From Turneriella sp. (GTDB lineage Bacteria > Spirochaetota > Leptospiria > Turneriellales > Turneriellaceae), in contig JABARV010000002.1 in the NCBI GenBank assembly GCA_019186965.1, positions 192,737-256,736 on the forward strand: a DNA stretch of 64,000 bases. The letters run 5' to 3'. Under the pieces are notes generated by a model. The model saw only the letters and a program-made list of their open reading frames with translations. It searched no databases and was not told where the DNA came from. Both the position numbers and the translations under genes were made by a program. Shown piece by piece: positions 33,434-49,023 of this stretch; position 1 is the stretch's first letter; each line of letters begins with the position of its first letter.

Positions 33434-33580
33434 GCAACATAAGACGAACAAAGCTGTTAGTTTAAGACAAAATTTATTACGAAAAGTTGCTGTATCGGTG
33501 TTATTCTCAACAATTCAGACTTGAAGAATAAATACTAAAAAAAAGAGTTACACGGCATCAAAGCTACGCTACATTTGGCT

Positions 33581-34228
33581 ATGAAAGGCTATAATCACCC
33601 CCGCGTATTTGTGCATGCGTTGGCGGTATTTTCATTAACTACCTTTATTCTTGCTGGATGCAATAACTATGGCTTGGTCGACATGCTGGAAAACCCGGCG
33701 GGGTTTGTCAGTTGCAAGCGCGAAGGGCCTTGCTATATTTTCGTGGCGACAAGTGGTGGTGGCTTTAACGGCAATTTAGGCGGCATAGCAGGCGCCGACC
33801 AAATTTGCAATAGCTCGCCTCTAAAACCGAACAGCGGTAAATATAAAGCGGTGTTGGTTGGTGAGGATCCTAATTCGCGAAAGGTGTGTATGAATCCCGA
33901 TTGCACCGGTACAGATGAAGCTGTGGATTGGGTCTTTCATCCAAACACCACGTATGTAAACACTTCCGGTCAAAGCATCGGTACAACCACGGACAATGGA
34001 ATTTTTTCATCTATACTCAGTGTAGTGTCTGCATCGGCAACACCCGCTGAAGTTTGGACGGGGTTGAATGGAAGTTGGCAGCCATTCTATACGTGCAATA
34101 ACTGGACGAGTAGTGCTGGTGCAGATTATGGTGCAGGAGGGTTTGCCAATAGTACAGGTTCACTATTCAGCGGTGCGTCTGCTCAGACGTGCAATGTGCT
34201 TCGCAATCTTTACTGCGCACAGCAATAA
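33581..34228 (+). CDS. DUF1554 lipoprotein B
   Basis: A 215-residue paralogue of the lipoprotein at 32786. The signal ends at LAGC (FSLTTFILAGC), followed by NNYGLVDMLENPAG and the DUF1554 domain: CYIFVATSGGGFNGNLGGIA, GADQICNSSPLKPNSGKYKA, VDWVFHPNTTYVNTSG, WTGLNGSWQPFYTCNNW and a final LRNLYCAQQ. Six or more Cys are conserved between the pair, suggesting disulfides. ATG 33581 is preferred over TTG 33575. Divergent paralogues suggest an inverted duplication followed by divergence. A strong hairpin terminator follows. Confidence 0.9.
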   Translation: MKGYNHPRVFVHALAVFSLTTFILAGCNNYGLVDMLENPAGFVSCKREGPCYIFVATSGGGFNGNLGGIAGADQICNSSPLKPNSGKYKAVLVGEDPNSRKVCMNPDCTGTDEAVDWVFHPNTTYVNTSGQSIGTTTDNGIFSSILSVVSASATPAEVWTGLNGSWQPFYTCNNWTSSAGADYGAGGFANSTGSLFSGASAQTCNVLRNLYCAQQ

Positions 34229-36311: not shown

Positions 36312-36971
36312 TTACGCGTTTAGCTCAACCCCGTTCATGTAAATACCAATTACCTCGTCGACTTTTTGCTCAATCGAGTCTTTATACCTACCGTACAAAA
36401 TCCATTGGCCCAACACCTCACGTAATCCACCCGAAACAAGGTAGCTCATAAGTTCACTGTCAAATTTACGTAGCCTACCCGATGCAATACCACGGTCGAA
36501 CATCACGCGGATAGAAGCCTGCAAAAACTCTTGGAACCAAATTGTTTGCATGCGTATTTTTGTGTCTGAGTTCATGGTTGTTAAAAGGATGCCCACGATT
36601 TCTTTTCGTTCTTGAAAAACGTTAAGAAGCGATTTTGCAAGCGCAGAAAGACCAATTTTAAAATGCTTTTGGTCGAGACTTTCTACTTGAAGCTCGGTAA
36701 GGTTTCTTTGGATTTCCATAAAGACCTCTTGCAAAAGCGCGTTTAAAACCTGTTCGACGCTTTGGAAATGCAGGTAAAAAGTTCCACGCGCAAGCCTACT
36801 TTTTTTCACAATGTCGGCAATTGAGGTGTTGCTAAACCCCTTTTGCGCAAATACTTTTTTGGCCGCATTTAGAATTTTAGTGCGCGTTATTTCTTTTCTT
36901 TTCTCTTGTAGCACGGTTTTGTACTCTTGTGTACGCGCTGTTTGTAAAAAGCGTTTAGGTTGTACCGTCAA
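36312..36971 (-). CDS. TetR-family transcriptional regulator
   Basis: Up to 219 residues. DNA-binding domain: ITRTKILNAAKKVFAQKGFS, then NTSIADIVKKSRLARGTFYL and HFQSVEQVLNALL. The C-terminal helical domain resembles AcrR/TetR_C types. The start is uncertain: TTG 36971 is the longest, while GTG 36914 gives a more usual N-terminus. It is convergent with Lrp (3-bp gap) and divergent from tadA, whose promoter lies in the 38-bp gap. Confidence 0.88.
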   Translation of the reverse strand: MTVQPKRFLQTARTQEYKTVLQEKRKEITRTKILNAAKKVFAQKGFSNTSIADIVKKSRLARGTFYLHFQSVEQVLNALLQEVFMEIQRNLTELQVESLDQKHFKIGLSALAKSLLNVFQERKEIVGILLTTMNSDTKIRMQTIWFQEFLQASIRVMFDRGIASGRLRKFDSELMSYLVSGGLREVLGQWILYGRYKDSIEQKVDEVIGIYMNGVELNA

Positions 36972-37008: not shown

Positions 37009-37473
37009 ATGTTAGAAGAAACACTACTACGACACGCCCTTTCGATGGCGTACGCCGAAGCAGAAATTGCGTTTGCCGAAAACGAGGTTCCTGTTGGAGC
37101 TGTTATCGTATACGATAATGAAATTATTGCGCGTGACCACAACCGTATCGTTACCGAATCGAACGCGCTTCGCCATGCAGAATTATCCGTTATCGAAAAA
37201 GCGGCTCAACTCCTAAAGAACGAGCGCCTAACCGAATGCCATTTAGTCACGACATTAGAACCATGCATGATGTGTTCAGGTGCGGTTATTTGGGCGAGGA
37301 TTAAATCTGTCCATTTTTTGTCCGAAGAAACCCGCGCCCCTGGATTACGCACCCTTTTAGCGCTTCCCAACGTTAACCATACACCGCAGCTATACCGCCA
37401 CCGTAGCGAAGAATGGGATGCGCCTTCTTTAATGCGGCGTTTTTTCCAAATGCGGCGCGGCGAGGAAAAATGA
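37009..37473 (+). CDS. tadA: tRNA-specific adenosine deaminase
   Basis: A 154-residue zinc deaminase that converts A34 to inosine in tRNA-Arg(ACG). Zinc and catalytic residues are His56 and Glu58 in LRHAELSVI and Cys86/Cys89 in LEPCMMCSGAVIWARI. NHGEV-type start AENEVPVGAVIV is conserved. Length is normal. Its stop overlaps the alr start at ATGA, so the two are co-translated. Confidence 0.95.
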   Translation: MLEETLLRHALSMAYAEAEIAFAENEVPVGAVIVYDNEIIARDHNRIVTESNALRHAELSVIEKAAQLLKNERLTECHLVTTLEPCMMCSGAVIWARIKSVHFLSEETRAPGLRTLLALPNVNHTPQLYRHRSEEWDAPSLMRRFFQMRRGEEK

Positions 37474-38597
37474 AAAAAGCAGAGCAGGGTGACGAAAATG
37501 GAATAAAGCCTAAGTTTTCCCCCACGTTAAAAATACACACCGCCGCTCTTCGACACAACCTTGGAGTATTTAAAAAGTTAGCGCCTAAGAGTAAAATTCT
37601 TTTGCCGGTAAAAGCAAACGCGTACGGGTGCGGTATTGAAACGCTCTATCCTTTTTTTGAAAAAGCGCCCATAGACATGCTTGGCGTTGCGAATGTATAC
37701 GAAGGGGTTGAGTTACGCAAGCTCGGCTTTAGAAAACCTATTTTGAATCTAGGTGGTTTTTTTCCAGAAACATTGCCGCTTTTTTTGCAAAATGAAATCA
37801 TTCCTTCCATTACCGATTTGCCGCAGCTACATGCGCTTAGCCAAGTAAAGAACCAAAACTTTGGCGTACATATAAAGCTCGATTTAGGGATGGGGCGCAT
37901 AGGAATACAACGGCACGAAGTAGACGCTCTCTTAACGGCTTTAGAAAAAATACCACACGCCAAAGTTACAGGAATTTTTACGCACTTCCCGCACACAGGA
38001 AATGCCGCTAAGGAGGCAACCCCAAAGCACAATAGCGATTTCGTGGAGTACGCAAATAGAATTATAGAGCGTTTGCAGCTTTCTCGTGCAGATGTACTCC
38101 TACACGCAGCAAATTCTTACAGTACAATTTTTTTTCCAGAGACACACCACGACATGGTACGTCCCGGAATTTTATTTTACGGTTACTACCAAAGCGAAGA
38201 AGACCGTATCGAGTTTAATCCACGCTTCGGTTTTCGTCCATCGCTTGAACTTTCTGCCATACCTATTAGTATACGCCGTGTTCCGCAGGGTTTTGGAATT
38301 TCGTACTCTTCGCTTTACGTTACAAAAGATGCATGGGAAAATGTGGGCGTACTTCCTTTAGGCTATGCAGATGGAATTCCGCGTGCTCTCTCAAATAAAA
38401 TTGTATTCGGGATGCACCCGTTACTAGGCCGTGTCACTATGGACCAAATTATTGTTGGTAATGCCACAGAACCAAAAGCAATCCGCCTATTAGGTGAAGG
38501 CGTTCCCTCTCTTGAGCTATGGGGAAAAATTGCAGAAAGTTTTTCGTATGAACTTATGACACACTTTGGTGCACGGCTTAGAAGAGAGTTGCAATGA
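37470..38597 (+). CDS. alr: Alanine racemase
   Basis: A 375-residue PLP enzyme that makes D-Ala for peptidoglycan. PLP Lys48 is in ILLPVKANAYGCG; a catalytic Tyr is likely in FGISYSSLYV; LGYADGIPRAL and GRVTMDQIIVG are family segments. ATG 37470 (GAGG 5-9 nt upstream) overlaps the tadA stop by 4 nt. It is followed by an S41-type peptidase and an amidase/beta-lactamase fusion, so this operon concentrates on cell-wall metabolism. Confidence 0.95.
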   Translation: MKKAEQGDENGIKPKFSPTLKIHTAALRHNLGVFKKLAPKSKILLPVKANAYGCGIETLYPFFEKAPIDMLGVANVYEGVELRKLGFRKPILNLGGFFPETLPLFLQNEIIPSITDLPQLHALSQVKNQNFGVHIKLDLGMGRIGIQRHEVDALLTALEKIPHAKVTGIFTHFPHTGNAAKEATPKHNSDFVEYANRIIERLQLSRADVLLHAANSYSTIFFPETHHDMVRPGILFYGYYQSEEDRIEFNPRFGFRPSLELSAIPISIRRVPQGFGISYSSLYVTKDAWENVGVLPLGYADGIPRALSNKIVFGMHPLLGRVTMDQIIVGNATEPKAIRLLGEGVPSLELWGKIAESFSYELMTHFGARLRRELQ

Positions 38598-40027
38598 AAA
38601 AATTTATTGCCTATTTTTTTCTCTGCGTTTCTTTAAGCGCCCTTTCTACGCACGAGGGTATCTCAAGCGCTGCTGCCGAACGGGATTTTCGCGTTATGAA
38701 TGCAATTTTTGCGCGTTCGCATGCAACAGCGTTTCGGCAAATTCCCGCTCGCGAGGCGCCGCTACTTTTTAGCGATGTAAAAGTTGTGTCTATTCCGCTT
38801 TTCCTTTCGCGAATTTTAACGTACTATAGTTCTTTGCACGCAGACCACACAATGGTGGGCTTTCCTCCAGAACTTATCGAAAAATACAATTTAAAAGACC
38901 GCCTGTTTCCTTTGCCGTTAAAGTTTTTTGGAGAGCATGCATTTCTCGACACGCGCTTGGCAGAAATTCCCTTTGGTGCAGAGCTTACCTCGATAAATGG
39001 AAAATCCATTCCTGAGATTTTAAACTCTTTCCGTTCTTTTCCACGAGGAAAAGAATTAAATACAACTCTTGCCTCGTATTACTTAAGCGAGCAATTTTCG
39101 AGTTGGTATTTTTTATCTGGAGAAGCTGGAGCGCCATGGCATCTCCAATTTTTTGGAATCGACAAAAAAGTAAAATTTTTAACCCCACGCGGCGTGCCTG
39201 TGCGTATAAGTACAAACCGCGAATACTGGAAACCAATCCTCTATTCAATGTTTATGGATAAAAAGAAAGTAGCGTACTTTGCGATTAACTCGTTTATTCC
39301 TGCTGGAACTGCGTACAACTCTATGGAGAAATGGATGGAGTACTTTGGCGCGTTCAATACCGAATCCCGGATGCGCGGCGCAAAAATCCTTATACTCGAT
39401 TTACGTGCAAACCGTGGCGGAGTAATGCCGCTTGCCGCATCTTCGGCGTCGTGGTTTATTGAAAACAAAATTGAAGATAGAAGCACAAGCCGCGTCCATA
39501 CGCGCCTTTTACCGTACCGCGAATTTGCTGTTGCAATAAATGGGCAAAACGCAAAACAGAAAGATTTTGATAAACTGGAAGATTTTTTGGCGCGTGATTT
39601 TTCCGACACGATAAAAAATGGTTATTTTGAAACACGTAATCCCGAAGCGCGGTTTGTAAGTTTGCACCCGCTCGAAAATATATACCGTTTTGAAAAAATA
39701 TATGTCCTTATTGGGCCGCAAACATATTCGGCTGCAGTGTATTTTGCACGGCTTTTAAAACTGGCAAATAGTCACGTTACCCTTGTAGGTACCCAAACAG
39801 GTAGTCCAGGGGACGGGCATAGCGCAGAAACTCTCGTCACGTACCGTCTTCCTGAATCGGGAATTTTTTTCGATGTACCCCTCGCACGTGTCGAGTTTTC
39901 GCCTCTTGTCCCTGGCCAAGTTAAAGGACAAGGACTTATGCCCGATAAAGAAGTTAAAGAAACCCTCGACGATTTTCGCCTTGGACGCGACACCGTTCTT
40001 GAAACAGTTGTTTCGTATCCTCATTGA
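38594..40027 (+). CDS. S41-family (C-terminal-processing-like) peptidase
   Basis: A 477-residue secreted protein with a signal peptide (KKFIAYFFLCVSLSALS). Residues ~100-140 have a PDZ-like FGAELTSINGKSIPEILNS; the catalytic domain has ILDLRANRGGVMPLAAS (~275-290) and IYVLIGPQTYSAAVYFARLL (~370), where Ser of TYSAA is the likely nucleophile, then GTQTGSPGDG. These fit tail-specific proteases, though the Lys general base is not certain. It starts inside the alr stop (ATGA). Confidence 0.85.
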   Translation: MKKFIAYFFLCVSLSALSTHEGISSAAAERDFRVMNAIFARSHATAFRQIPAREAPLLFSDVKVVSIPLFLSRILTYYSSLHADHTMVGFPPELIEKYNLKDRLFPLPLKFFGEHAFLDTRLAEIPFGAELTSINGKSIPEILNSFRSFPRGKELNTTLASYYLSEQFSSWYFLSGEAGAPWHLQFFGIDKKVKFLTPRGVPVRISTNREYWKPILYSMFMDKKKVAYFAINSFIPAGTAYNSMEKWMEYFGAFNTESRMRGAKILILDLRANRGGVMPLAASSASWFIENKIEDRSTSRVHTRLLPYREFAVAINGQNAKQKDFDKLEDFLARDFSDTIKNGYFETRNPEARFVSLHPLENIYRFEKIYVLIGPQTYSAAVYFARLLKLANSHVTLVGTQTGSPGDGHSAETLVTYRLPESGIFFDVPLARVEFSPLVPGQVKGQGLMPDKEVKETLDDFRLGRDTVLETVVSYPH

Positions 40028-40041
40028 TACTGGTATAGAGA

Positions 40042-41664
40042 ATGCGCCACACTTTCGATAAATTATTTTTTCTTGTGCTTTTTTTTCTTCTCCAGTGTAA
40101 ATCCGACCCTATAAAAGATCGCCCTATTTCTTTTTCTCCTTGGCGAAAGCAGCAGACAATAAATTATATTCGAGCGCATTACGGTACGGATGCACAGGAT
40201 ATTAAAATGCTTCCTGTAATGGTCGTGTCGCATTATACAGCGATGGACTCCACCGATGTTTCCTTTGAATATATGAACAAAGAAGAAATGGAAGCTGGAC
40301 GAAAGGTATTAAAAGATGCGGGGCTTAACAATATTGCCGTGCATTTTCTTGTGGGAAAAGATGGAACAATTTACCGTCTTATGCCAGAAAACCATATTGG
40401 CCGGCATGTTATTGGACTAAACCGCCACGCAATTGGGATTGAAAATGTCGGTAAAGATGAAAGCGCACTTACGCAAGCGCAGGTTGATGCAAACGCGTAC
40501 ATTGTGCGCGAGCTTGTTAAAAAATATCCCATCCATTATCTTATTGCACACTCCGAGTACCGTAACTTTGAAAAAACGCCGTTGTGGGAAGAAAAAGACG
40601 ACGCATACCGCACGAAAAAAATTGACCCCGGAGAGTCTTTTATGCGTTCCTTGCGGGAAAAACTTAAAGATTTAAACCTTAAAAGCCAATACGACGGAAG
40701 CGAACTTTACGACCGCCTTGGCTATACACTGGATAATTATTTTCGAAAAGGAGAATTTGAAGGAAACGCATTAATCATCTTTAATGGAAAAACTATTTTG
40801 GACAAAGCGTACGGTAAACAAAAAATAACCGACGCAATTTATCTTGCTTCAGCGGCAAAGCCAATTTCCGCAGCGGCTGTTTACGCTTTAATTTCAGAAA
40901 AAAAACTTTCGCTTAAAACCCCCGTAGCTCCTTATTTCCCTAAATTAAAGAAAATTTTACCAAACGTCCAAGTGCGCCACCTCCTTAACCACACTTCGGG
41001 CATTGAAGACTATTACAAACTTACCGAAGAAAAAGGACCTTTTACAAATAGCGCGGTACTTGCTTTTTTAGAAACTATGGAAAAACCACTTTTTAAAGCA
41101 GGTAAAAAATTTTATTATGCAAATTCAAACTATATTCTACTTGCAGAACTTATCGAAAAAATTACAAACAAAAAATTTACGGAGTACGTGCGTGAAAAAA
41201 TTTTTATTCCCGCAAAAATGGAAACAAGTTTTTTTGTTACCGAAATAATTCCCGAAAAAAAAATTATTACAGCAACCACCGCGTCGGGAGATAGCTTTCT
41301 TTACCCCCACAAAACAGTTGGAGCAGGTGGCCTTTATGCGACCACGGGCGATTTGGCGCGTTTTGGTATGGCGCTTAACCAAGACGTATTTTTTAACCAC
41401 GCCCTTTTCTTAAAAATGGTTGAACCTTCAACAAGTGTCGAACAGAAAAAAACACAGTACGCATCGGGATGGTACGTGTACCCCAAGCAAGGCATTATTT
41501 ACCACGATGGAAATTTTAACGGTTACCATACCATCAATTATTTGGAGTGGAAAAAAAAGAATGCTATTATTTTGCTTGCACGCCGTTCAACAAACAAGAT
41601 TAAAGAAATTACGTACGAACTTGGTGCGGCCATTAACGGCCGCACGGCAAAAAAGTTGGAGTAA
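40042..41664 (+). CDS. Fusion lipoprotein: N-acetylmuramoyl-L-alanine amidase plus class-C-type beta-lactamase/DD-peptidase domain
   Basis: A 540-residue protein. Signal HTFDKLFFLVLFFLLQC ends at lipobox LLQC (Cys19). Residues ~50-205 are an amidase_2 (PGRP-like) domain: His64 (VVSHYTAMDS), His101 (VHFLVGKDG), His170 (IAHSEYR) and DPG at 195-197, matching the zinc ligands. Residues ~225-535 are a serine beta-lactamase-fold domain with S270-x-x-K273 (LASAAKPISAA), YAN (359-361) and HDG (488-490). The two activities would cut cross-bridges or stem peptides (DD-peptidase) and the sugar-peptide bond (amidase). It follows the S41 gene by 14 bp and alr, so a wall-recycling or remodelling role is likely. 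Fusions of these domains are uncommon. Confidence 0.9.
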   Translation: MRHTFDKLFFLVLFFLLQCKSDPIKDRPISFSPWRKQQTINYIRAHYGTDAQDIKMLPVMVVSHYTAMDSTDVSFEYMNKEEMEAGRKVLKDAGLNNIAVHFLVGKDGTIYRLMPENHIGRHVIGLNRHAIGIENVGKDESALTQAQVDANAYIVRELVKKYPIHYLIAHSEYRNFEKTPLWEEKDDAYRTKKIDPGESFMRSLREKLKDLNLKSQYDGSELYDRLGYTLDNYFRKGEFEGNALIIFNGKTILDKAYGKQKITDAIYLASAAKPISAAAVYALISEKKLSLKTPVAPYFPKLKKILPNVQVRHLLNHTSGIEDYYKLTEEKGPFTNSAVLAFLETMEKPLFKAGKKFYYANSNYILLAELIEKITNKKFTEYVREKIFIPAKMETSFFVTEIIPEKKIITATTASGDSFLYPHKTVGAGGLYATTGDLARFGMALNQDVFFNHALFLKMVEPSTSVEQKKTQYASGWYVYPKQGIIYHDGNFNGYHTINYLEWKKKNAIILLARRSTNKIKEITYELGAAINGRTAKKLE

Positions 41665-41715: not shown

Positions 41716-42120
41716 CTATTTAACTTTAATGTGTATTGTTTGTGCCCACATAGGGCCATACGAAACGTGTGCACCATCGGCGAATTGTAGCGTAATTAAG
41801 TAATCGCCTTTTTCGAGTGCGCGTGTATCTTCTGTTTGGCCTTTACCGTAGTGGATGTGGACAGGGTCGGTGACAACAACATCGCCAGCAGGTACTGCTT
41901 CTTTGTTAATGAGAATATGGAAATGTCCGGTTCCCAGTTCCATTTCTCCAGCGGGTTTTATTTTCATACCTTCGACGTGCATGGTAAATTTCACAGGAGA
42001 CGTTACCTCGGCTTTATCTAAAGGCTCACCAAACCAAACCCTTCCTTTGTAGACGCTTTGCTTATTACAGCCAAGCACCAAAAGTGCAACCATTACGGTA
42101 AAGGTAAAAATGCGTTTCAT
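41716..42120 (-). CDS. DUF4399 lipoprotein
   Basis: A 134-residue secreted protein with signal KRIFTFTVMVALLVLGC (lipobox VLGC). The domain carries VWFGEPLDKAEVTSPVKFTM, GTGHFHILINKEAVPAGDVV and GKGQTEDTRALEKGDYLITL, VSYGP...IHIKVK, the DUF4399 pattern. His residues in GHFHI and VHIHYG may bind metal. The function is unknown. It converges with the fusion gene (51-bp gap) and diverges from the gene at 42240. Confidence 0.88.
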   Translation of the reverse strand: MKRIFTFTVMVALLVLGCNKQSVYKGRVWFGEPLDKAEVTSPVKFTMHVEGMKIKPAGEMELGTGHFHILINKEAVPAGDVVVTDPVHIHYGKGQTEDTRALEKGDYLITLQFADGAHVSYGPMWAQTIHIKVK

Positions 42121-42812: not shown

Positions 42813-44159
42813 ATGCCAAAGTTCTATTTCAATATCTGTGCGGCGTTACTTGTATTAACGCCGATAGCCGCGCAGCCAAAAAACAATGAGACTGCCGCTG
42901 CCGCTACAAGCGAACAGCGCCAACCATTCCGCCTCACATTGGCTGCTGCAGAAGCTTCTTTTAGAGAAAGGAACTTATTGCTTTTAGCGGCAAAATTTCA
43001 AATCGATGCGAAGAAAGCACTCGTGATGCAAGCGGGGCTTTATGCAAACCCGAGCGTCTTTTTAGAAACCAATATCTATAACCCGCGCACGACGCAATTT
43101 CTCGACCCCACCGAAAACGGTAGCCAAATTATTCAAGTACAGCAGCTCTTTTTATTAGGCGGAAAAATCGATAAACGTATTCGCGTCGCTGAAATTGATA
43201 AGGCGCTCACCGAAAATGAATTCTATAATGTGTTGCGTGCGTTAAAGACAGAGTTAAGGAATACTTTTTTCTCTCTGCATTTTATGCGCGAGAGTATCGT
43301 CTATTACGACCAAACAATCGAAGCTCTCATGAAAACCGTCAAGGGCGCGGAGGTCGCACTTTCGCGCCGTGCGATCACCAAAGCAGAATATCTGCGCCTC
43401 AAGGCATTGAGTTATTTCTTGCGCAACGAACGCGCAAATATCCTCGTCGATTTACGCTTAAAAGAAGTCAATCTGCGCGTGCTCATGAACCGTCCCGATT
43501 TGGCGGATGTAGAAATTATACCCGAGGTGAACGAAACGGCGTTAGAAGCGACCGCTATTGGTTCGCTCACGGTCGAGCGACTTCTCAAAGAAGCCGAAGA
43601 ACACCGCCCCGATATTAAAGCCGCTATGTTGCAGCTCAAATACGAAACCGCCAATTTAGATTTACAAGAAGCGAACGCAATACCCGACTTGGCTTTTGGC
43701 CCTGTATTTAATCGCGCGAATACTTATATTCCCAACTACTGGGGACTCACCGCTCAAGTTAGTGTGCCGCTTTTTGACCGCAACCAAGGCAATATCGAAG
43801 CAGCGAAAAAAGCCATCATAACGCGCAAGCAACAACTTCTGAACGAGCGCATGAAGCTTGAAGGAGAGCTGTCGGCGTCGCTCATCAAAGCAAAAGAAAA
43901 AGATAAAATTTATCAAGAATTTAAAAAGGGGCATGTGCAAGACTTTCGTGATTTGATGAACGTGATGGTCTTGAGTTACCAGAAGCGTTATATCTCGGTG
44001 ATTGAGTTTGCTGACTTTTTTGAAACCTACCGCAACAGTATCGTGCAACTCATCGACTTGAAAACACAACGCACTGCCGCGTTGGAAAACATCAACTACG
44101 CCATCGGCAAAGACATTTTGTTTTTACAAACACCGACCGCTGCAATGGAGGAAAAATGA
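42813..44159 (+). CDS. TolC-family outer-membrane efflux protein (CzcC-like)
   Basis: A 448-residue outer-membrane factor with a signal peptide (PKFYFNICAALLVLTPIAA). The two TolC repeats (~40-230 and ~250-440) contain long amphipathic helices and RPDIKAAMLQLKYETANLDL, the conserved RPD/E start of the second repeat, and SVPLFDRNQGNIEAAK. It exports substrate from the RND pump below. RBS GGAGGG lies just before the ATG. It heads a four-gene operon; its stop overlaps the next start at ATGA. A possible MerR-type 19-bp-spaced promoter (TTGGAG/GACTAC, 42769-42800 region) lies upstream. Confidence 0.93.
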   Translation: MPKFYFNICAALLVLTPIAAQPKNNETAAAATSEQRQPFRLTLAAAEASFRERNLLLLAAKFQIDAKKALVMQAGLYANPSVFLETNIYNPRTTQFLDPTENGSQIIQVQQLFLLGGKIDKRIRVAEIDKALTENEFYNVLRALKTELRNTFFSLHFMRESIVYYDQTIEALMKTVKGAEVALSRRAITKAEYLRLKALSYFLRNERANILVDLRLKEVNLRVLMNRPDLADVEIIPEVNETALEATAIGSLTVERLLKEAEEHRPDIKAAMLQLKYETANLDLQEANAIPDLAFGPVFNRANTYIPNYWGLTAQVSVPLFDRNQGNIEAAKKAIITRKQQLLNERMKLEGELSASLIKAKEKDKIYQEFKKGHVQDFRDLMNVMVLSYQKRYISVIEFADFFETYRNSIVQLIDLKTQRTAALENINYAIGKDILFLQTPTAAMEEK

Positions 44160-44755
44160 CTATACTTGTCCCATCCCGCGCAAAGCCGCTGCCCCTCCCC
44201 ACACTTCGACTGCGCTCAGTGCGAGTGTGGAGAGTGGCCAGGAGGCTGAAGCTCTTCTGCTTCTTTCTGTTATTTGGCTTGCTGAGCGCAGCCGAAGCAA
44301 GCGATAAATTTACCCAAGCTTACCAAGATGCCGATGAAGCGGTCGAGCGCAACCGTGTCACCAATTCATTCTTTGCCATTGGCCCCACAGTTGGTTTGCC
44401 CGCGGGACTAAACGCACACGCCTCGCTCTATTTGTGGCGGTTTGTCGTGCACGGCGTGGGGATGTTTTATTCCCCCGATTTCATGGGGGCGCAAGGCGGC
44501 GTCGGATTTTCATTCTTGAACGGCGCCCGTATCCGCCATAGCGTTTCGCTCGTCGGTGGTTTTATGCGCCGTAATCCCATTCTATCCACCTCTTCGATGG
44601 CGACCATCCAAGACGCAACTTATGCGGGCGTCGCGTATGAATTTTTTGCGGACGGCTTTTTTGTACAAGTGGGTCTTGCGCACGGCCTGTCGGGAAATAT
44701 GGCCAACCCGATACTCATTTTTCAAACCGGTTATCTATTTTCTTTTATGAATTAG
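44156..44755 (+). CDS. Outer-membrane-like protein in the efflux operon; signal peptide built from REP elements
   Basis: A 199-residue protein. The unusually long, basic N-terminus (LPTLRLRSVRVWRVARRLKL) and the core FCFFLLFGLLSAAEAS are encoded across two REP-like palindromes (44199-44230 and 44277-44302). After cleavage near AEA|S the mature ~145 residues have Gly-rich alternating strands (SLYLWRFVVHGVGMFYSPDF, GVGFSFLNGARIRHSVSLVG), like a small outer-membrane barrel. It sits between the TolC and adaptor genes, overlaps the TolC stop by 4 nt and is 17 bp before the adaptor. It may assist export or stabilise the complex; the role is unknown. Confidence 0.75.
   Translation: MTILVPSRAKPLPLPTLRLRSVRVWRVARRLKLFCFFLLFGLLSAAEASDKFTQAYQDADEAVERNRVTNSFFAIGPTVGLPAGLNAHASLYLWRFVVHGVGMFYSPDFMGAQGGVGFSFLNGARIRHSVSLVGGFMRRNPILSTSSMATIQDATYAGVAYEFFADGFFVQVGLAHGLSGNMANPILIFQTGYLFSFMN
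44199..44302. repeat. Two REP-like palindromes within a signal-peptide coding region
   Basis: First: CCACACT-TCGACTGCGCTCAGTG-CGAGTGTGG (44199-44230). Second: GCTTGC-TGAGCGCAGCCGAA-GCAAGC (44277-44302), a core in opposite orientation with perfect 6-bp flanking arms. Both share the T(T)CGRCTGCGCTCA core of the array at 1-412 and the solo copy at 32496. Confidence 0.8.
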
Positions 44756-44772
44756 AAAAAAAGGAGAAAACA

Positions 44773-45729
44773 ATGAAAGTAAAATTAACAATCCTCGCGA
44801 GCGTTGTTGCACTGTGGGCGTGTAGCGCAAAGGCGCAACCAGTGACGAAATACGTTGCACCTATTGTTAAAGACAACGGTGCGGTCGTCTATTTTCCACC
44901 AGGTGCGCAAGGTCGTGAGACAATCCAAACAAAGCCTTTCGGTAAAGGCAAAGAATTTATCCAAATTCAAGCACCTGCGCGCATTGTCGCCACAGTGGGT
45001 CGTTCGGTTTCGGGCGGTGGTCGTATTGTGCTTTTTGAATCCGCCGACTTAAACACCGCGTATGCGACATACCGCCAATCGCGCAACGCTTCGTCTCGGG
45101 CGCACAAAAACCTCAAACGGTTGAGAGACATGTATTCGATGCAAGTGGCTACCGAGCGCGACATTATCGAAGCGGAGACCGAGGCCGGCAATTCGAGCGC
45201 CGCCGTCGCCGAGTCGGAAGGAAAGTTGCGTGCGGCAGGGGTAAATCCTGCTGACATGAATCGGTATGGCGGCCACATTGCATGGCTTATTGCCGACATC
45301 GGTGAAAGCCGTTTTGAAACAACGAAGTCGGGTAAACCTGTGAATATTATTTTCAATTCATTCCCCGATAAAAAATTCAAGGGCAAGGTACAAGCAGTGG
45401 GCGATAACATCGATCCTCAAACACGCACGGTAAAAGTCCGCATTGTCTTAAAAAATCCCAACAACAAATTTAAACCCGGCATGTTTGCCAACGTCGAGTT
45501 TTTAGACGATGCACAGGCGCCGATGGTTTTACCGTTCACCTCTGTTTTCACCGTTGAAGGTGAAAACTTTGTCTTTGTTGAAGAAAAAAAAGATGCGTTT
45601 CGTAAAAAATTTGTCGTCTTGGGTAATTCAAATGTCAATTACGTTGAAATTTTAAGTGGGCTTTCCAAAGGCGATATGGTTGCAACCGAAGGCGTACTTT
45701 TCTTGAAAGGCCTTTCGGTCGGTTTCTAA
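44773..45729 (+). CDS. RND efflux periplasmic adaptor (CzcB-like)
   Basis: A 318-residue HlyD-type membrane-fusion protein with a lipoprotein-like signal (VVALWAC). It has a beta-barrel/lipoyl-type region (ETIQTKPFGKGKEFIQIQAP), an alpha-hairpin with ASSRAHKNLKRLRDMYSMQVAT (22 residues; key motif LKRLRDMYSMQVAT), VQAVGDNIDPQTRTVKVRIV and FKPGMFANVEF. It bridges the RND pump and TolC. It is short for the family (usually ~380-500), lacking an extra metal-binding N-terminal part. RBS AGGAG precedes the ATG; 12 bp separate it from the pump gene. Confidence 0.9.
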   Translation: MKVKLTILASVVALWACSAKAQPVTKYVAPIVKDNGAVVYFPPGAQGRETIQTKPFGKGKEFIQIQAPARIVATVGRSVSGGGRIVLFESADLNTAYATYRQSRNASSRAHKNLKRLRDMYSMQVATERDIIEAETEAGNSSAAVAESEGKLRAAGVNPADMNRYGGHIAWLIADIGESRFETTKSGKPVNIIFNSFPDKKFKGKVQAVGDNIDPQTRTVKVRIVLKNPNNKFKPGMFANVEFLDDAQAPMVLPFTSVFTVEGENFVFVEEKKDAFRKKFVVLGNSNVNYVEILSGLSKGDMVATEGVLFLKGLSVGF

Positions 45730-45741
45730 AGCGACCGCGTC

Positions 45742-48700
45742 ATGCAAAAAATTATCTTCAAAACGATTGAGTTTGCATTAAAATACAAATTGCCGACATT
45801 GGCGTTGGCGTTCGTCATTTTTGCACTCGGCGTGTGGTCATGGGTGGGCATCCAGAAAGAAGCGTACTCGGACATCGCCGACACGCAAGTGCGTCTTGTG
45901 GCCGCGTTTCCCGGGCGCGCCGCAGTCGAAGTGGAAGAGCGCGTCACATTGCCGATTGAGCGTGTTTTGAACAACACACCCAACGTTCGCGTGCGGCGTT
46001 CACGCACGATTAACGGCCTTGTGGTTTTTCAATTTGTTTTTGAAGAAGGGACAGACGACTATTTTGCGCGCATGCGCCTCATGGAAAAAGTGAAAGAGGC
46101 AGATATTCCTCCTGAGGTGGAGCCCGAACTTGCGCCGATGAGCTCACCCTCGGGGGAAATTTATCGCTATATTCTGGAAACACGCGCCAACCACACCCCA
46201 ATGGAAGTACGCACCGCGCAAGACTGGATTGTGATGCCTAAAATTTTAGGCGTGCCTTGTATCGCCGATGTTGTGACGTTTGGTGGCTTGGAAAAACAAT
46301 ACCATGTTATCACCACCCCCGAACGATTGGTGCAATATAACACCAACCTTGACGAAGTGGTCGGTGCAATTCAAAACAACAACTTAAACACGGGCGGCAA
46401 TATTTTGCGCCAAGGCGATCAAGGATTTGCTATCCGCTCCTTAGGCGCCATTCGTTCGATTCAAGATATTAAAAACGTCGTTGTAAAAGTGCAAAACGGC
46501 GTACCCGTTTTTGTCAAAGACCTTGCATCGGTTGAAGTCTCTCCGCTTATACCGCAAGGGTACATCACCTACTTTACTCAAAACGCCGAAGAAGGCGAAT
46601 TTAGATCGACCTCGGGCGTACAAGGCAACATTGCAATGCGCCGTTGGTGCGACCCCAACGTAACCGGTGAGAACATTAAAGCGAAAGTAAAAGAAATCAA
46701 CGAACAATACTTGCCCAAAGGCATGGAAATTAAACCCATGGTCGACCGCGCCAATTTAGTCGATTACACATTGCGCACCATCGGTTCAACTCTTATCGAA
46801 GGCGTGACGATTGTTACACTCATTCTTATCTTTTTCATTGGGTCTGTGCGCACCGCAATGGTGGTGGTGCTCACAATTCCGTTCTCACTTCTTTTTGCCT
46901 TTATTCTCATGCGCATGACCGGGCTTTCGGCGAATTTGTTGTCGTTGGGCGCCATCGACTTTGGGATTATCGTCGACGGCGTAGTGATTATGGCTGAAAA
47001 CATTATGCGCAGCTATCGAGAAAAGCGAGAGAACCGCCATCTGAAATTAGACAAACACACGCTCAACAGCAGTAAAGAAGTGGGTATGGAAATCTTCTTT
47101 TCAATTTTAATTATTATTCTGGCATACATCCCCATTTTCTCGTTCCAACGCATCGAAGGCCGTCTTTTCAAACCGATGGCGTTTACCATCTCGTATGCAA
47201 TTTTAGGTTCGCTTATTTTTGCGATGACGGTGATGCCGGTCATTATGTCGATTATCTACCGCAAGTATTGGGAATCCGATCGCGAAGAAAAAATCGAGTG
47301 GCACAACCCTGTTTATCATTGGCTCGAAGCGCGTTATAAAACACTCATTAAGTTTCTGATTGCACGCTACAAAAAAATAGTCTACGTTGCATTTAGTATC
47401 GTCACAGTTCTTATTATTTTTGGTGGGATTAAAATTGGTTCTGAATTTTTGCCAGAGCTCGACGAAGGAAACTTGACACTGCGCGGTTATTTTCCCGTGG
47501 GCGGCTCGCTTCAAGCGGCGAATAAATCAGTGCCTAAAATTTTAGACTTGCTCGCCAAAAACAAGATGATAGCCAATGCCGTAGCACAAATGGGGCGTAA
47601 CGATTCGGGCACCGACCCCTTGCCGCCCAACCGTCTTGAAATTACCATGGCGTTACACGACTATAAAAAATGGAATGAGAAAATTACAAAAGAAGATTTA
47701 CTCATCCGCATTATCAAAGATTTAGAACATGAGTTTCCTGCGATACGTTGGAGCTTTTCACAACCCATTATGGATAATATGTCGGAGGCAATTATGGGGA
47801 CAATTGCCGACATGGCGGTTTTTGTGTACGGCCCCGATCTAAAAATTGCAAGACAAAAGGCCACTGAAATTTTAGAGATTGTAAAAACAATCCCCGGCGC
47901 GTCGGAATATGGTTTAGAACAAGAAGCCGATGCACCGCAACTAACAATCCAAATTAAACGTGATGTTGCTGCACGGTATGGTATCAACGTGAGTACAATA
48001 CAAAGCCTGATCGAGAAGGGCATTGGTGCGCAGCGTGTTTCAACATTGTACGAAGGCGCGTGGCGGTTTGGAATCGTCGTGCGCTTTCCTTACGATTATC
48101 GCAAAAGTGTTAAAGAACTGAAAGCACTGCCAATTTTTTCACCCAAAGGAGAACGGCTTGCGTTGTCGACGTTGGCCGATATTCAAATCGTTGACGGCCC
48201 CACGATGATTTTTCGGCAAGAAGGTAAACGCGCCATCACCGTGCGCTCAAATATCCGTGGGCGCGATCAAGGTTCGTTCGTTGCAGAGCTACAAAAAAAA
48301 GTGAAGAAGCAAATCAAAATGCCTGATGGTTACACGTTGCAATACGGCGGTAACTATGAAAACTTAGCGCGTGTGGGTAAACAACTTGCAGTGGCAATTC
48401 CAGCAACGATAATAATCATCTTTGCTCTTTTATTCGCCCTTTTTAAACGGTTAAATTTTGTTTGGGTCGCCTTAGCGTGCATTCCCCTGTCGCTTGTCGG
48501 CGGTATAATGGCGCTTGTCTTGCGGCATTACTATTTTAACGTTTCGGCGGGGGTTGGATTTATTTCGCTTTTTGGTATTGCAACAATGGCAGGAGTGCTT
48601 TTTGTTTCGCGTACAAACCAAATCCTCCAAAATAACTCCACAATGGGCATGCGCGACGCTGTTGAAAAGGCTGCACAAATACAACTACGGCCAATGCTTA

Positions 48701-49023
48701 TGACAATGCTTCTTGCCCTTTTGGGGCTTATTCCCGCGACGCTTGCAACAGGCGTAGGATCGGATGTACAGCGTCCATTGGCGACTGTTATCGTGGGAGG
48801 GCTTGCCTCTGCGCTTCTTTTGGTACTAACTGTGTTACCATGCCTCTATCTTTTGGTGGTACGTGAAAAAAAATCAGCCGCTAAAGAAAGTGAATTTTTT
48901 CTTACTCAGGATGCACTACAAATAAATATGGATACCGCCAAAGAAGGAAAAACAGAGTATTCCACAAACCGTTACGTTGCGCAGCATAAAAAGAACGAAC
49001 CACGCAAAAAGCGCCGCCTGTAA
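45742..49023 (+). CDS. Heavy-metal RND efflux pump (CzcA/CusA family)
   Basis: A 1093-residue inner-membrane proton-driven pump with 12 predicted helices and two large periplasmic domains. The fourth-helix motif [15 protein letters not shown] (~residues 405-420) is the heavy-metal (HME) signature with the proton-relay Asp; this D-F-G...D-G...E-N form is closer to Co/Zn/Cd/Ni exporters than to Cu/Ag CusA, so Zn/Co/Cd efflux is suggested. It completes a C-x-B-A operon (42813-49023). The C-terminal ~60 residues form a charged extension not required by the family. Exact metal specificity cannot be read. Confidence 0.94.

Follow-up and report, generated by a model that had tools for sequence, protein, structure and literature searches.

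Peptidoglycan turnover has been little studied in leptospiral spirochetes. AmiD of Escherichia coli, an amidase of the Amidase_2 family, is a lipoprotein, as is the protein described below. AmiD accepts both MurNAc and anhydro-MurNAc (PMC6403190), and the Amidase_2 enzyme AmiR of Caulobacter cuts peptidoglycan fragments but not intact sacculi (PMC13046382). In DD-carboxypeptidases of the R61 type, catalytic motif 3 is (K/H)(S/T)G and an arginine serves the terminal carboxylate, whereas DltE, in which motifs 2 and 3 are altered and the arginine is absent, is a D-Ala esterase that does not bind penicillin (PMC10241514). D-Aminopeptidases, D-amino-acid esterases, and amidases also belong to the S12 fold group. 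In Bacillus subtilis, muropeptides are broken down stepwise by two exported enzymes, first NagZ and then AmiE (PMC5061867), the latter of which is a PF00144 protein (PMC10653849). Rhodothermus has a NagZ to which a beta-lactamase domain is joined; it lacks AmpG, and extracytoplasmic degradation of fragments has been proposed for it (PMC6987092).

An amidase and a beta-lactamase-fold domain in one lipoprotein

The window, which is the whole 64,000-nucleotide stretch of Turneriella sp. DNA analyzed here, contains a gene that encodes an Amidase_2 domain and a beta-lactamase/S12-fold domain in a single unbroken frame (Table 1). The encoded protein begins with MRHTFDKLFFLVLFFLLQC, which contains a lipobox (FLLQ-C19), and Cys19 is invariant in five orthologs, which by sequence reading makes the protein a bacterial lipoprotein. 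In Pfam searches, the two domains matched PF01510 with 75.4 bits (cut-off, 26; E value, 6.8e-21) and PF00144 with 145.4 bits (cut-off, 27; E value, 3.1e-42), both over the curated cut-offs, and the two families were matched by all five full-length orthologs. No peptidoglycan-binding domain was found by Pfam in any of these five. A chance or mistaken joining of two genes was ruled out by the frame, which has no internal stop, and by the five full-length orthologs and two more that are cut by contig ends. The fusion of two complete cell-wall-cutting enzyme domains is real and old.

Table 1. Features of the fusion gene and of the genes upstream of it in the window
Feature	Coordinates	Strand	Remarks
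TetR-family regulator	36312..36971	-	Divergent; also beside tadA in G006 and G005
tadA-like deaminase	37009..37473	+	First gene of the same-strand run
Alanine racemase (alr)	37413..38597	+	4-nt overlap with the S41 gene
S41 peptidase	38594..40027	+	Signal peptide; TYSAAV serine, DHT, and GSxGxGH motifs invariant; directly upstream of the fusion gene
Fusion lipoprotein gene	40042..41664	+	540 aa; signal peptide, Amidase_2, linker, beta-lactamase/S12 fold
Lipoprotein signal peptide	40042..40098	+	FFLVLFFLLQC; lipid-acceptor Cys19 codon at 40096-40098
Amidase_2 (PF01510) domain	40216..40632	+	aa 59-197; H64 (40231-40233), E134, H170, K193, D195
Conserved short linker	40633..40767	+	aa 198-242; invariant D210, L211, L213, Y217, D218, E221, R225
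Beta-lactamase/S12-fold (PF00144) domain	40768..41595	+	aa 243-518; SAAK 270-273 (40849-40860), YAN 359-361, HDG 488-490 (41503-41511)

In the amidase domain, H64, H170, and D195, which we take to be the zinc ligands from what is known of the AmpD/PGRP family, are invariant, as are the catalytic residues of the AmpD-type active site, E134, which lies within GIENVG, and K193, which stands two residues N-terminal of D195. In the S12 domain, S270-x-x-K273 (SAAK), Y359-x-N361 (YAN), and H488-x-G490 (HDG) are invariant in the five orthologs, and D489 inside the third motif is likewise invariant. All 11 of the 11 expected catalytic residues are therefore invariant across the five full-length sequences, for which the chance is about 3e-5 against a background of 213 invariant columns among the 535 ungapped columns (40%) of the alignment. 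A sequence-only reading of this DNA had described a lipoprotein in which an amidase and a beta-lactamase-fold domain are joined, with all the zinc ligands and the SxxK, YxN, and HxG motifs in one chain behind a lipobox, and the domain search that it suggested and the ortholog alignment bear this out. The amidase domain is predicted to be an intact zinc N-acetylmuramoyl-L-alanine amidase of the Amidase_2 family.

The AlphaFold model of the whole protein has a mean pLDDT of 68, with low confidence in the loop bearing YxN and in the amidase part, and in a fold search, it best matches the R61 DD-peptidase (E value, 8e-15), followed by FmtA, Pyrococcus and Bacillus PBP homologs, ClbP, D-stereospecific hydrolases, and DltE. 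The sequence matches of the S12 domain agree with these fold matches. The profile match, the SxxK and YxN motifs, and the R61 fold match together identify an S12 serine hydrolase fold. A separate model of the amidase domain is of poor quality (pLDDT, 57); the LysC amidase is its top match in the PDB, at a weak E value of 0.05.

Distribution, descent, and gene neighborhood

A search of 61 genomes identified the fusion in six other genomes of the genus, whole in four (54 to 62% identity) and split over contig ends in two. Over all 48 genomes sampled of the class, it is present in 7 of 7 from the genus and in 0 of the 41 others. None was found outside the genus among 247 Spirochaetota genomes, in which single-domain homologs (amidases of about 220 to 300 aa and S12 proteins) are common, or in 200 Pseudomonadota genomes, which have only single-domain homologs. 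Full-length matches came from the genus only in a pattern scan of 84,980 prokaryote species, a scan that reaches close relatives only. The term "genus-specific" is valid for the groups covered here, namely the sampled Spirochaetota and Pseudomonadota, plasmids, and viral contigs. Apparent fusions elsewhere were rejected because each nongenus match was confined to a single half: among Pseudomonadota, ten proteins that have a long extension at the N terminus showed no amidase on reading by eye, and a Nonomuraea match (aa 84-500) aligns with the fusion profile only beyond position 170 and not in the amidase core. In one class member, G032, the amidase and S12 halves are encoded separately, on different contigs. 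The domain combination had been called unusual, and the distribution agrees with this in the sampled groups; the fusion is neither widespread nor already described in the collections and literature searched, and no description of a PF01510-PF00144 pair was found in that literature.

In phylogenetic analyses of the separate domains, the S12 halves formed one fully supported clade on a long branch, the nearest relatives of which are not resolved by the tree. The amidase halves grouped with stand-alone amidases of the same class, two other spirochetes, and one Legionella, with support of 100/99. The fusion label needs two changes on the tree because a fragment from the genus (L044 in G002) was left unlabeled as a fusion, and the simplest reading is a single fusion event before the genus radiated. 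The distribution of the fusion is strictly vertical, with a single-copy operon gene across the genus. A horizontal or phage origin was rejected, with no relatives among the viral contigs of IMG/VR and no plasmid record covering 80% of the fusion protein.

The fusion gene stands at the end of a tadA-alr operon, and its position behind tadA, alr, and an S41 peptidase gene, as initially noted, was confirmed in the window. The tadA-alr-S41-fusion order with a divergent TetR gene is common to the window, G006 (L022), and G005 (L109), in the last of which alr and S41 are separated by an additional small gene; the order alr-S41-fusion is found in G001 (L021). In these three relatives, the S41 and fusion frames share a 4-nt overlap of stop and start codons, and in the window, 14 nt separate them. 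The S41 protein matched PF03572 (47.8 bits; cut-off, 24), its active-site serine is invariant in seven sequences, and its two histidine-containing motifs are likewise invariant; it has no viral relatives. Since the S41 gene is restricted to the same seven genomes of the class and adjoins the fusion gene in each, the two genes are inherited as a pair.

Other genes around the locus are recorded here as side observations. The extra gene in G005 (L109:3325-3861) encodes a small lipoprotein-like protein of 178 aa without a Pfam match and occurs in this relative alone among those read. A DUF4399 lipoprotein-like gene (41716-42120) converges on the fusion gene, and a close homolog lies a few kilobases from the fusion in G006 (L022:10608-11051). 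The OEP/TolC-like, HlyD-type, and RND genes at 42813-49023 probably encode a metal efflux system, and between the OEP/TolC-like and HlyD-type genes lies one for a 199-aa protein that has no Pfam match (44156-44755). Further upstream, 33575-34228 encodes a DUF1554 (PF07588) protein of 217 aa with a lipobox-like start.

Probable substrate and proposed role in peptidoglycan turnover

In each of the seven genus genomes, no Amidase_2 domain was found other than that of the fusion, but the genus is not limited to this one amidase, since it also has an Amidase_3 enzyme. Searches for AmpG and AnmK gave no match in the genus or in neighbors without the fusion, and the positive controls were matched. 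One GH3/NagZ-like protein was found in six of the seven genus genomes, the seventh genome being 84% complete, and a hydrophobic N-terminal anchor is present in the four that were read (L104, at G000:C6:47800-50200 of the window's own genome, L111, L112, and L113). As a separate observation, peptidoglycan turnover in the genus seems to be extracytoplasmic, with an anchored NagZ-like GH3 protein and with AmpG and AnmK not found. The link to muropeptide processing that the sequence-only reading had raised is strengthened by these features and by the place of the gene in the alanine racemase operon. In G006, a second, single-domain PF00144 paralog (L048, frame around 1444-2628 on the minus strand) has VAQQ for SxxK, FTN for YxN, and QEG for HxG and may be a pseudoenzyme, its catalytic motifs apparently being lost; its relative in G001 (L045) keeps the motifs.

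Which bond the S12 domain cuts is less clear from its motifs. Motif 3 is HDG in all six fusion sequences that cover it, whereas the closest single-domain S12 relatives in the class have HTG, HAG, or HSG; HDG is compatible with a loose HxG pattern and departs from the stricter (K/H)(S/T)G that characterizes DD-peptidases, including R61-type DD-carboxypeptidases. The scores against the NCBIfam equivalog models for AmpH (NF007943; 49.8 bits against a cut-off of 266) and class C beta-lactamases (NF033085; 28.3 bits against 415) are far below their cut-offs. Because HDG places an acidic residue where DD-carboxypeptidases have Ser/Thr, D-Ala-D-Ala cleavage by this domain is possible but is not its default expectation. 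The initial suggestion of one protein cutting both the sugar-peptide bond and D-Ala-D-Ala thus holds in that two hydrolase domains are intact in one chain and is weakened, by the invariant HDG, with regard to D-Ala-D-Ala.

We tentatively propose, at somewhat short of an even chance, that the fusion is a lipoprotein that faces the periplasm and there, outside the cytoplasm, processes peptidoglycan fragments of the cell itself. The lipid-anchored protein would face the periplasm, where muropeptides released by lytic enzymes could reach the amidase domain, which would free the stem peptide from the MurNAc or anhydro-MurNAc of these muropeptides. The S12 domain, kept close by the short linker, might next act on this stem peptide, cutting a D-amino-acid bond in it as a carboxy-, endo-, or aminopeptidase, and the secreted, co-encoded S41 peptidase and the membrane-anchored NagZ-like glucosaminidase may finish the breakdown in the same compartment. 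The cell's own turnover products are the likelier substrate because the comparable Amidase_2 enzyme AmiR cut fragments and not sacculi (PMC13046382). Extracytoplasmic breakdown of fragments fits the sole Amidase_2 domain, the AmpG and AnmK that were not found, and the anchored NagZ-like enzyme, and the position of the fusion gene behind alr, which supplies D-Ala, also supports processing of own fragments. Against it, motif 3 is HDG, so that the choice of peptide bond for the S12 domain is a guess. The fusion is not required for the state lacking AmpG and AnmK matches, since neighbors without the fusion share that state.

Another reading of the same domains is a remodeling hydrolase that acts on the intact sacculus, in daughter-cell separation or cross-link tailoring, with an amidase and a DD-endo- or carboxypeptidase side by side. 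The lipid anchor could put the fusion at the wall, alr shares its operon, the R61 DD-peptidase is the best model match, and amidase and DD-carboxypeptidase activities are combined in AmiA of Chlamydia (PMC9928106). However, no ortholog has a peptidoglycan-binding domain, the genus has an Amidase_3 enzyme, which is the type of amidase that usually serves in cell separation, sacculi were not cut by an Amidase_2 recycling enzyme (PMC13046382), and motif 3 is HDG, which together make sacculus remodeling unlikely. A further possibility is that the S12 domain is a D-amino-acid esterase or a D-aminopeptidase/amidase whose substrate is not the stem peptide, the two domains being joined merely for co-location. 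FmtA, Flp, ClbP, DltE, a D-aminopeptidase, and a D-amino acid amidase are among its top sequence and fold relatives, and an altered motif 3 accompanied the loss of DD-carboxypeptidase function in DltE (PMC10241514), and HDG is invariant here in place of H(S/T)G. The Asn of motif 2 and the H/K of motif 3, both lost in DltE, are nevertheless kept in the fusion. Teichoic acids, the substrate of DltE, are to our knowledge not expected in spirochetes, and we give this possibility little weight.

A beta-lactam hydrolase fused to an amidase as a resistance enzyme would fit the PF00144 fold and the weak matches to class C models, but the class C score is 28 bits against a 415-bit cut-off, the gene belongs to the core genome, is strictly vertical, and has no resistance context, and its S12 relatives are mostly peptidases and esterases; this function is very improbable. 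Action on foreign wall material, which had also been suggested from the sequence, fared no better. In favor of a weapon or a feeding enzyme directed at the walls of other cells, the protein is secreted and has two cutting domains, and in PHROGs, the two domains are matched by phage endolysins and by a "lysin" family of phage tails, yet the protein is lipid anchored with no immunity gene recognized beside it, there is no PADLOC match, no relative occurs in viral contigs, and a stable single-copy operon gene is found throughout the genus, so we regard such a role as most improbable. A defense system was likewise ruled out, there being no PADLOC match.

Returning to the processing of own fragments, a bolder form, which we consider doubtful, is that the two-headed enzyme, the genus-specific S41 peptidase, and the anchored NagZ-like protein dismantle muropeptides completely in the periplasm, as an alternative to cytoplasmic recycling that does without AmpG import and AnmK and in which one chain makes both cuts. 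The fusion and its S41 partner are a concrete, testable candidate for handling wall fragments in a genus that, like its nearest relatives, gave no match for AmpG or AnmK, and the fusion offers a natural experiment on why two wall hydrolases become covalently linked.

Comparison with known systems

The stand-alone spirochetal amidase lipoproteins (G187, G026, G208, G032, and others) share an N-terminal "RPISF..." region and the amidase domain with the fusion, to which they are 38 to 47% identical, but they are about 220 to 300 aa long and have no S12 domain and, in the class members searched, no such S41 partner gene. AmiA of Chlamydia is a cell-division amidase of the Amidase_3 type and is not a two-domain fusion. 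Amidase and DD-carboxypeptidase activities have nonetheless been reported in that one protein (PMC9928106), which is comparable to the two domains of the fusion. AmiD/AmpD-type enzymes of E. coli and AmiR belong to the same Pfam family and have the same catalytic set (His, His, and Asp zinc ligands, Glu, and Lys) as the fusion but lack an S12 domain, in place of which AmiR has a peptidoglycan-binding domain (PMC13046382). The group of the Streptomyces R61 DD-peptidase, AmpH, and FmtA-Flp (PF00144, MEROPS S12) has SxxK, YxN, HxG, and the fold in common with the fusion, which differs in being about 20% identical to them, in having HDG for H(S/T)G, and in being joined to an amidase. In NagZ and AmiE of B. 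subtilis and in the NagZ-beta-lactamase fusions (RmNag3 of Rhodothermus and relatives), a PF00144 protein is coupled physically or genetically to another extracytoplasmic muropeptide-degrading enzyme, as in the fusion; in those systems, the PF00144 protein is paired with a glucosaminidase, and AmiE is the amidase, whereas in the fusion, it is paired with a zinc amidase and NagZ is a protein of its own. Each half of the fusion belongs to a known family, the coupling of PF00144 to another muropeptide enzyme has precedents, and the pairing of an amidase with an S12 domain was not described in the literature searched.
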